The position numbers and the translations under genes are program-made. The notes beneath the pieces were generated by a model. That model searched no databases and had not been told where the DNA came from. It saw only the letters and a list, made by a program, of their open reading frames with translations. This document shows, in pieces, positions 1,998 to 12,325 of a stretch of DNA of 13,862 bases (within the stretch, counting starts at the first letter, position 1; every line of letters begins with the position of its first letter). Origin of the DNA: Nitrospinae bacterium RIFCSPLOWO2_12_FULL_45_22 (GTDB taxonomy: Bacteria; 2-12-FULL-45-22); the NCBI GenBank assembly GCA_001803565.1, contig MHDQ01000276.1:1-13862 (forward strand), given 5' to 3'.

Positions 1998-2026
1998 TTG
2001 ACATTTTATATTCTGTGGGGTAAATT
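1998..2026 (+). promoter_or_regulatory. Sigma70-type promoter for the mraZ operon
   Basis: A perfect TTGACA (1998-2003) is followed after the optimal 17 bases by TAAATT (2021-2026), which matches the -10 consensus at 4 of 6 positions. Transcription would begin near 2032-2034, giving a leader of about 54 bases before the mraZ GTG at 2087. The perfect -35 element, an upstream AT-rich inverted repeat and downstream MraZ boxes together make this the likely main promoter of the dcw operon. Confidence 0.72.
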
Positions 2027-2036
2027 TTGTGCCGTA

Positions 2037-2071
2037 GTGGAGCATAGTGGTACGAAGTGGTAAAAAGGGGC
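2037..2071 (+). promoter_or_regulatory. MraZ operator: GTGGN boxes at 10-base spacing
   Basis: GTGGA (2037-2041), GTGGT (2047-2051) and GTGGT (2057-2061) are spaced exactly 10 bases apart, and a degenerate fourth, GGGGC (2067-2071), is in phase. Short G-rich boxes separated by five bases, just downstream of the promoter and upstream of mraZ, are the known MraZ binding layout; in E. coli it is TGGGN repeats with 5-base spacers. One helical turn per box places all boxes on the same face of the DNA. The array starts at about +4 relative to the predicted start site, so bound MraZ would block initiation or early elongation, that is, negative autoregulation. Confidence 0.78.
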
Positions 2072-2087
2072 GGGAGGGGCTAGGGGG
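2067..2087 (+). promoter_or_regulatory. G-rich mraZ leader: ribosome-binding site within a potential G-quadruplex
   Basis: Four G-tracts (2067-2070, 2072-2074, 2076-2079, 2083-2087) are separated by loops of 1, 1 and 3 bases, on the mRNA-sense strand. The GGGAGGGG segment (2072-2079) is also the probable Shine-Dalgarno sequence, 7 bases before the GTG start at 2087. The last G of the last tract is the first base of that start codon. Folding as a quadruplex would hide the ribosome site. The motif is directly visible; folding and effect are inference. Confidence 0.6.
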
Positions 2088-2539
2088 TGTTTTTAGGGAA
2101 ATATACTACCAATTTAGACCCTAAAGGCCGGGTGGTCATGCCAGCAAAATTCCGCGAGGTCTTGCGGGGCATAGAAGTAGACCGGCTCTATCTATCTTTC
2201 AATGGCAGACATCTCTCAGCTTACCCCCCTCAAATTTGGGAAGAACTCCACGCCAACCTTTATAACAAAATAACCACCTCCCCTCATCTTGATGGCAACC
2301 TGAGCGATTACCGCCGCTATATGAACTCCCTAACCTCTCCTTGTAATATAGATAAACAAGGTAGGCTCCTTATCCCGGGTGAATTGCGGGATAAAGCCGG
2401 AATAACTAAAGAAGCAATTATATCCGGGAACGAGAAGATGATTGATATCTGGAGTAAAGAAGGATGGGATAAATTTGAGCAGGAGATGCAGGGGAAATTG
2501 GCTGAGATGAGTAAAGACCTATCGGCTATAGGATTTTAA
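2087..2539 (+). CDS. mraZ: Transcriptional regulator and division-cluster repressor MraZ
   Basis: MraZ is an AbrB-fold DNA-binding protein that assembles into rings and controls the dcw operon it heads. The 150 residues are typical. Two tandem SpoVT/AbrB-like half-domains are visible: the first around DPKGRVVMPAKFRE (11-24) and the second around DKQGRLLIPGELRD (89-102). Each keeps the family's Asp-x-x-Gly-Arg core. A charged C-terminal helix (about 123-145) follows. Translation starts at GTG 2087, which gives the family's usual N-terminus MFLGKY and has a strong G-rich ribosome site. The gene is directly downstream of in-phase GTGG boxes, its expected operator. Its stop codon overlaps the rsmH start by one base (TAATG). 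Function is secure from motifs and position. Confidence 0.96.
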   Translation: MFLGKYTTNLDPKGRVVMPAKFREVLRGIEVDRLYLSFNGRHLSAYPPQIWEELHANLYNKITTSPHLDGNLSDYRRYMNSLTSPCNIDKQGRLLIPGELRDKAGITKEAIISGNEKMIDIWSKEGWDKFEQEMQGKLAEMSKDLSAIGF

Positions 2540-11199: not shown

Positions 11200-12325
11200 A
11201 GGCTCAGGAAGAAGTATCACTGCTTCTACCTGGCAACGGCCAAAGAGTCATGGCGACTTTTTATTGCTTGCCGGAACTATTGGCCTATTAGTGATAGGTT
11301 GGATTATGGTATACAGTTCTAGCGCTATCATTGCCTGGGATAATTATCACAACCCTTATCTTTTTTTAAAGAGGCACTCTTTCCATCTAATTATTGCCCT
11401 TATGGCTATGGCGCTAGCAATAAAATTTGATTATTTGAGTATCAGGAGATTGACCTATCCCTTATTAGCCCTCAGCCTGCTCCTTCTTTTAGCTGTGCTG
11501 GTCTCACCCTGGGGCAAGGAGGCCGGTGGCGCTCGGCGATGGTTAGCCCTGGGCACACTATCTTTTCAACCCTCAGAACTGAGTAAATTGACCTTGATAA
11601 TTTATCTGGCCCATTCCTTAACCAAAAAGATGGGGCGCTTAAAAGAATTTACGTATGGCTACCTGCCAAATTTTATTATCATTGGTCTATTCTGCGCCCT
11701 GATACTACTTCAACCTGATCTGGGTACTGCCTTATTCCTACTGATGATAGGCTGCCTGTTATGCTTCATAGCGGGGACCCCTCTCTCCTACCTCTTTTAT
11801 GCGGCTCTATTCTGCCTCCCGTTCATCATTCTAGCTCTCTTCAAGGCCGAGTTTCGCCGGCAGCGCCTATCGGTCTTCCTGAACCCCTGGAACGATCCTC
11901 TAAATAACGGCTATCAAATAACCCAATCATTCCTGGCCCTGGGGAGTGGTGGGTTATGGGGTATGGGGCTAGGACAAGGCAGACAGAAGCTGTTCTATCT
12001 GCCCGACCCCCATACTGATTTTGTCTTTTCGATTATTGGTGAAGAGCTTGGCTTTATAGGCGTATTAGGGATCATATTTTTACTGGGATTATTGGTCTGG
12101 CGGGGGTTTCGGACAGCCTTTAGACTCCCAGATATCTATGGCCAATTATTAGCTACGGGGATCATATTATCTATCGCCATACAAAGTTCTATTAATCTTG
12201 GTGTAGTAGTTGGATTACTACCCATTAAGGGGCTCCCTTTTCCCTTTATCAGTTTAGGTGGGACCTCCTTATTGGTGAATATGGTGGGTATAGGGATATT
12301 ATGGAACATGAGCAAACAAATATAA
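11153..12325 (+). CDS. ftsW: Septal peptidoglycan glycosyltransferase FtsW (SEDS family)
   Basis: FtsW is the divisome membrane polymerase that joins lipid II units into glycan chains with FtsI as partner. From ATG 11153 it has 390 residues; the frame is open back to GTG 11126 (399 residues). About ten hydrophobic segments follow a cytoplasmic PKSHGDF. SEDS motifs include MVYSSSA, GGARRWLALG, FQPSELSKL, QPDLGTAL, GLGQGRQKLFYLPDPHTDFVF and LPFPFISLGGTSLL. The Asp of HTDF fits the catalytic aspartate of the extracellular loop. The start is uncertain: ATG 11153 lies 47 bases inside murD with no clear ribosome site. The natural-looking ATGA overlap at the murD stop (ATG 11196, reading MKAQEEVSLL) is in a different frame. 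A sequencing indel or true frameshift near 11200-11250 is possible, but the downstream protein is intact. Confidence 0.93.
   Translation: MLSEATVLSSSYGHYEGSGRSITASTWQRPKSHGDFLLLAGTIGLLVIGWIMVYSSSAIIAWDNYHNPYLFLKRHSFHLIIALMAMALAIKFDYLSIRRLTYPLLALSLLLLLAVLVSPWGKEAGGARRWLALGTLSFQPSELSKLTLIIYLAHSLTKKMGRLKEFTYGYLPNFIIIGLFCALILLQPDLGTALFLLMIGCLLCFIAGTPLSYLFYAALFCLPFIILALFKAEFRRQRLSVFLNPWNDPLNNGYQITQSFLALGSGGLWGMGLGQGRQKLFYLPDPHTDFVFSIIGEELGFIGVLGIIFLLGLLVWRGFRTAFRLPDIYGQLLATGIILSIAIQSSINLGVVVGLLPIKGLPFPFISLGGTSLLVNMVGIGILWNMSKQI

Follow-up and report, generated by a model that had tools for sequence, protein, structure and literature searches.

MraZ boxes have been described in E. coli, where MraZ represses its operon; in Mollicutes the repeats read AAAGTG[T/G] (PMC8475190). 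In Burkholderia (B. cenocepacia) MraZ binds four 7-nt repeats separated by 3-nt spacers, which lie downstream of the -10 element and overlap the transcription start (PMC7761207). For Staphylococcus aureus, the main text of a 2025 study reports, using CD, NMR and reporter assays, that an oligonucleotide from the mraZ leader forms a parallel G-quadruplex (G4) and that the ligand NMM lowers expression, and it claims that the motif is conserved (PMC11796246). DNA binding, autoregulation and TGGG do not occur in that main text, and 'box' is used there in unrelated senses only. Since MraZ binding goes unmentioned in it, the quadruplex and MraZ binding are not separated there; we suspect that the S. 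aureus quadruplex overlaps MraZ boxes, the S. aureus letters being absent from the main text.

The original work on quadruplexes that mask bacterial ribosome-binding sites is reportedly that of Wieland and Hartig in 2007. In E. coli, expression falls when an artificial quadruplex masks the ribosome-binding site (PMC10801317), and an RNA quadruplex in a 5'UTR, located 43 bp ahead of a ribosome-binding site, raises translation (PMC11087576).

The locus described here lies in a stretch of 13,862 nt (the window), which is contig MHDQ01000276.1 of an assembly of Nitrospinae bacterium RIFCSPLOWO2_12_FULL_45_22 (GCA_001803565.1) that is 85% complete. It resembles the MraZ operators of E. coli, B. cenocepacia and Mollicutes in its GTGG core, its 10-bp period and its three to four boxes, as well as in its position after the -10 element, across the inferred transcription start and before the mraZ gene that heads the dcw operon. 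It differs from them in that its putative box 4 is GGGG, not GTGG, and abuts a G-rich Shine-Dalgarno sequence. Like S. aureus PmraZ_G4_3, which the main text of PMC11796246 proposes as a dcw regulator, it carries a cluster of G tracts downstream of the mraZ promoter; compared by description, however, the S. aureus element is a ligand-stabilised DNA G4 that lowers expression, whereas the motif found here is compact, covers both Shine-Dalgarno and start codon, and is known from sequence. With the synthetic masking quadruplexes (PMC10801317) it shares the inclusion of the ribosome-binding site, although those are designed reporters with no natural operon or switch. With the system of PMC11087576 it shares a quadruplex motif in a bacterial-type 5'UTR, but there the motif is upstream of the ribosome-binding site, which the present one would contain. 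An earlier sequence-only reading of this stretch knew of no described quadruplex switch at mraZ; in view of the S. aureus report that statement is out of date.

The mraZ gene, its promoter and its operator

The gene at 2087..2539 (+) begins with GTG and matches the Pfam MraZ family (PF02381, E 3.8e-24). Its product, which reads MFLGKYTTNLDPKGR from GTG 2087-2089, retains all of the invariant residues D11, K13, R15 and D89, G92, R93, and by both measures the mraZ downstream of the ladder has its DNA-binding motifs intact. An earlier start codon was considered and rejected, because with TAG in frame at 2081-2083 the GTG at 2087 is the first possible start. The Shine-Dalgarno region, GGGAGGGG (2072..2079, +), lies 9 nt before this GTG, with its core GGAGG at 2073-2077. 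The core is complementary to the CCUCC tail of the genome's own 16S rRNA, the 3' end of which reads ...GGATCACCTCCTTTCT; this tail is canonical, and a non-canonical anti-Shine-Dalgarno was rejected for that reason.

Upstream of the gene, a sigma-70-type promoter is predicted at 1998..2026 (+), formed by a -35 element TTGACA (1998-2003), a 17-nt spacer and a -10 element TAAATT (2021-2026); it agrees with the consensus at 10 of 12 positions, and the prediction is one by consensus match alone. From the promoter spacing we infer a transcription start near 2033. Three MraZ operator boxes follow in a strict 10-bp period (2037..2060, +), namely GTGGA at 2037, GTGGT at 2047 and GTGGT at 2057, and exactly +10 from the third comes a degenerate box 4 (2067..2070, +), in which AAAAAGGGG takes the place of AAAGTGG. 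The direct GTG-core repeats upstream of mraZ thus occupy, from 2037 to 2070, the interval between the -10 element and the start codon. The ladder pattern GTGGN6GTGGN6GTGG has this one occurrence in the whole 3.67-Mb genome, where further MraZ ladders were sought and none was found. By analogy with the work in E. coli, Burkholderia and Mollicutes, we infer that MraZ would bind at 2037-2070 and repress from there.

The divergent pepA-mraZ intergenic region contains several other repeats. The sequence TGAACTGTTAC occurs there three times, direct at 1844-1854, inverted at 1884-1894 and direct again at 1921-1931, so that the copies form perfect 11-nt inverted repeats; these may represent small hairpins or a site for a regulator. 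Tandem 14-nt copies at 1819-1846 (ACTGAACCCTGTCA / ACTGAACCCCGTGA) overlap a promoter-like match on the minus strand (1833-1804) upstream of the leucyl aminopeptidase gene. A perfect 13-bp A/T-rich inverted repeat with a 1-nt loop, at 1969-1995 (AAAAAAATTTTCC / GGAAAATTTTTTT), stops just short of the mraZ -35 element.

MraZ box ladders in other leaders

We surveyed 133 mraZ leaders, that of the window and 132 others, taken from the better-scoring MraZ matches and with starts assigned by rule (a start codon is present in 128 of the 133). Runs of at least two TGG at exactly 10 nt are found in 110 of the 133 leaders, against 4% of shuffles, and 105 of the 128 leaders with an assigned start carry at least two in-register [AG]TGG boxes; the ladder thus precedes mraZ in most of the other lineages. 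The box consensus across the survey is AAAGTGG. Where two GTGG boxes stand in register, the next rung is GTGG in 70 leaders, ATGG in 8, GGGG in 6 (including the window) and AGGG in 5. The five other genomes with GGGG in the box-4 slot belong to three families, three of them (G021, G161 and G392) to the same one, and to judge from these leaders GGGG or AGGG at the next rung is a recurrent variant of the box.

Since the GGGG of the window is at exactly +10 and recurs in other genomes, its first G tract (2067-2070) is best read as MraZ box 4 in degenerate form. The cluster could otherwise reflect compositional chance together with a G-rich Shine-Dalgarno, without any MraZ box at 2067. The degeneracy of box 4 and the fact that the Shine-Dalgarno by itself provides two of the tracts fit such an origin, but the exact register of box 4 and the presence of GGGG in the same slot elsewhere do not, and we regard it as quite unlikely.

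The last box starts at most 20 nt from the start codon in 50 of the 105 ladders, and in some within 3-7 nt, so that overlap between operator and ribosome-binding site is common. Such an overlap is the simplest reason for clusters of G tracts at mraZ starts. One further leader, L153 (genome G261), reads AAGGGGAGCAAAGTGGAGGAAGGGGGAGGGTTGTG; it too has a G-rich overlap of operator and ribosome-binding site, with a predicted two-tier quadruplex.

A compact quadruplex motif over the ribosome-binding site

Read directly, the plus strand at 2067-2087 is GGGG-C-GGG-A-GGGG-CTA-GGGGG. It contains four tracts of at least three G (2067-2070, 2072-2074, 2076-2079 and 2083-2087) joined by the short loops C, A and CTA, as a regulatory RNA G-quadruplex would have, and both motif and score (G4Hunter 2.8) mark it as a putative compact G4 with tracts 4-3-4-5 and loops 1/1/3. 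Tracts 2 and 3 (2072-2079) correspond, by their letters, to the Shine-Dalgarno region. The final G of tract 4 is base 1 of the mraZ start codon, and this tract has no counterpart in the other mraZ leaders compared. Only the Gs at 2083-2086 and the G at 2072 are left unaccounted for by box or Shine-Dalgarno; on our reading the four G tracts arise where box 4, the Shine-Dalgarno and a spacer rich in G meet. The sequence-only reading had described four sense-strand tracts with 1/1/3 loops that include the ribosome-binding site, end in the first base of the start codon and lie partly within a ladder of MraZ boxes upstream of mraZ, and the letters confirm this description: GGAGG and GTG fall inside the motif, the ladder is there and unique in the genome, and tract 1 sits exactly on its next 10-bp rung.

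The motif is unusual in its genome. When the local 140 nt were shuffled with dinucleotides preserved, G3 motifs with loops of at most 3 appeared in 1.0% of the shuffles and the exact 1/1/3 loop class, which was defined post hoc, in 0.12%; this class had no occurrence in 228 kb of the genome. Genome sampling for the motif controls comprised 60 stretches. In an 812-kb sample that includes the window, compact G4s have a density of 6.2 per Mb per strand, and among 601 control gene starts, predicted by a simple script, mraZ is the only one with a compact G4 over it. Its G content at -25..0 (16/26) is also the highest of the 601 predicted starts. A genome-wide use of G4s at starts was considered and rejected, as loops of up to 7 gave 3 of 601 starts, one of them compact. 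Three-tract patterns were not clearly enriched (145 vs 132 in the reversed control).

Two other G-rich features were seen in the window. A run of nine Gs at 2653-2661, in rsmH (mraW), encodes the conserved GGGG of TLGGGGHAG and is a possible site of slippage or sequencing error, and a second canonical G4 motif, GGGGAGTGGTGGGTTATGGGGTATGGGG, is located at 11941-11968 (+) within an ftsW-like ORF.

For the RNA from 2033 to 2160, ViennaRNA RNAfold predicts an MFE of -42.6 kcal/mol with quadruplexes and -32.3 kcal/mol without them, and an ensemble difference of -12.1 kcal/mol; at 60 C the quadruplex advantage is less than 1 kcal/mol. The folding model thus supports a capacity of 2067-2087 for quadruplex formation. 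On such a basis one can envisage an RNA switch, in which a parallel quadruplex at 2067-2087 hides the Shine-Dalgarno and the start, and its opening by a helicase, K+ or another signal adds translational control on top of MraZ repression. The compact loops and long tracts, a stabilisation of some 12 kcal/mol and the singularity of this start in the 812-kb sample count in favour of such a switch, as do the artificial masking quadruplexes of E. coli (PMC10801317). On the other hand, 18 of 200 composition-matched shuffles of the leader reach an equal or greater predicted quadruplex stabilisation, and without something to open it the fold would keep the ribosome-binding site hidden at all times. 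The analysis turned up neither a receptor nor a helicase site, nor a conserved fold that would compete.

Conservation of the quadruplex

A compact G4 is present in none of the 132 other mraZ leaders, a set without close relatives of this genome. With loops of 1-7, canonical G4s are seen in 2 of the 132, against 1.6 expected by shuffling; both consist of MraZ boxes, and after masking of the ladder boxes none of the 132 leaders retains one. Looser G2 motifs are found in 46 of 132 leaders vs 32 in shuffled ones, a figure that becomes 11 once the MraZ boxes are masked, and a predicted quadruplex stabilisation below -1 kcal/mol in 7 of 132 vs 10.6 expected. With canonical G3 motifs unenriched in these leaders, the conservation of an mraZ G4 across bacteria, as claimed in PMC11796246, does not hold in our survey.

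The phylum of the window consists of two genomes, and in the other one (68% complete) no mraZ, rsmH or full ladder was detected. As a proxy for close relatives we used the family of G053, one of the two genomes with a canonical G4 in the leader, which comprises 30 genomes from 19 genera; the family of the second G4-bearing leader is a single genome. In the G053 family 30/30 leaders keep a three-box ladder together with a Shine-Dalgarno region rich in G, and 1/30, that of G053 itself, has a canonical G4. Some predicted quadruplex stabilisation is seen in 16/30, vs 49% of shuffles. What stays in this family are the boxes and the Shine-Dalgarno; the predicted quadruplex comes and goes. Among the leaders of the family (L074, L258-L285) many read like GGGGGAAGGGGTGGAGCG before the start, a block that recurs in their Shine-Dalgarno region and is unlike that of the window.

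Conservation of the tracts beyond the Shine-Dalgarno was the test that the sequence-only reading had set for itself, and neither the 132 leaders nor the G053 family, both comparisons made outside the window's own lineage, show the tracts conserved beyond other constraints. This lack of conservation bears directly on the RNA switch, which we consider unlikely. Of the stable RNA quadruplex with translational control that had been proposed, the predicted folding capacity stands and a dedicated switch is unsupported.

It also bears on a quadruplex at the DNA level, formed with an R-loop on the non-template strand downstream of the promoter and modulating transcription or the access of MraZ. The tracts do lie on the non-template strand, ~34-54 nt past the inferred transcription start, and an arrangement of this type has been proposed for S. 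aureus mraZ from the oligonucleotide G4 and the NMM effect. The S. aureus effects, however, need added ligand, no endogenous role is apparent from PMC11796246, the main text of which does not separate MraZ binding to the same region, and the mraZ leaders surveyed show no conservation of a canonical G4; we hold a DNA quadruplex of this kind to be highly improbable. A fusion of operator and ribosome-binding site particular to this poorly sampled lineage, in which MraZ-bound DNA would go together with a translation-limiting mRNA quadruplex, is very unlikely; such a quadruplex would hold back synthesis of the repressor for as long as neither a helicase nor an ion change had opened the fold.

Discussion

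We read 2037-2087 as an ordinary autoregulatory mraZ leader in which operator and ribosome-binding site run together, and give this reading a probability of about 0.8. An MraZ oligomer would bind duplex DNA at the four direct boxes (2037, 2047, 2057 and 2067), which follow the -10 element and precede the Shine-Dalgarno, and MraZ would repress its own operon. The mRNA would be translated from the strong, G-rich Shine-Dalgarno to GTG 2087. The capacity to form a quadruplex would be a by-product of abutting elements, and the RNA fold, if formed, would likely exert a modest and unregulated drag on initiation. Counting against an ordinary leader are the compact motif at 1 of 601 starts, the greater part of tract 4, for which it has no explanation, the large predicted quadruplex stabilisation and the degenerate box 4 (T to G). 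The quadruplex may form, judging from the sequence, and we see no sign of selection for it; a regulatory role for it is probably absent.

Quadruplex motifs reported at mraZ need to be told apart from MraZ boxes, direct repeats on a 10-bp period that are rich in G in their own right. As the operator lies at most 20 nt from the start in about half of the ladders, mutations that break a quadruplex may hit MraZ binding or the Shine-Dalgarno. A translational switch at mraZ is possible, if unsupported, and would be lineage-specific; if real, it would provide a natural example of a quadruplex that covers a ribosome-binding site, located where the cell-division operon begins.
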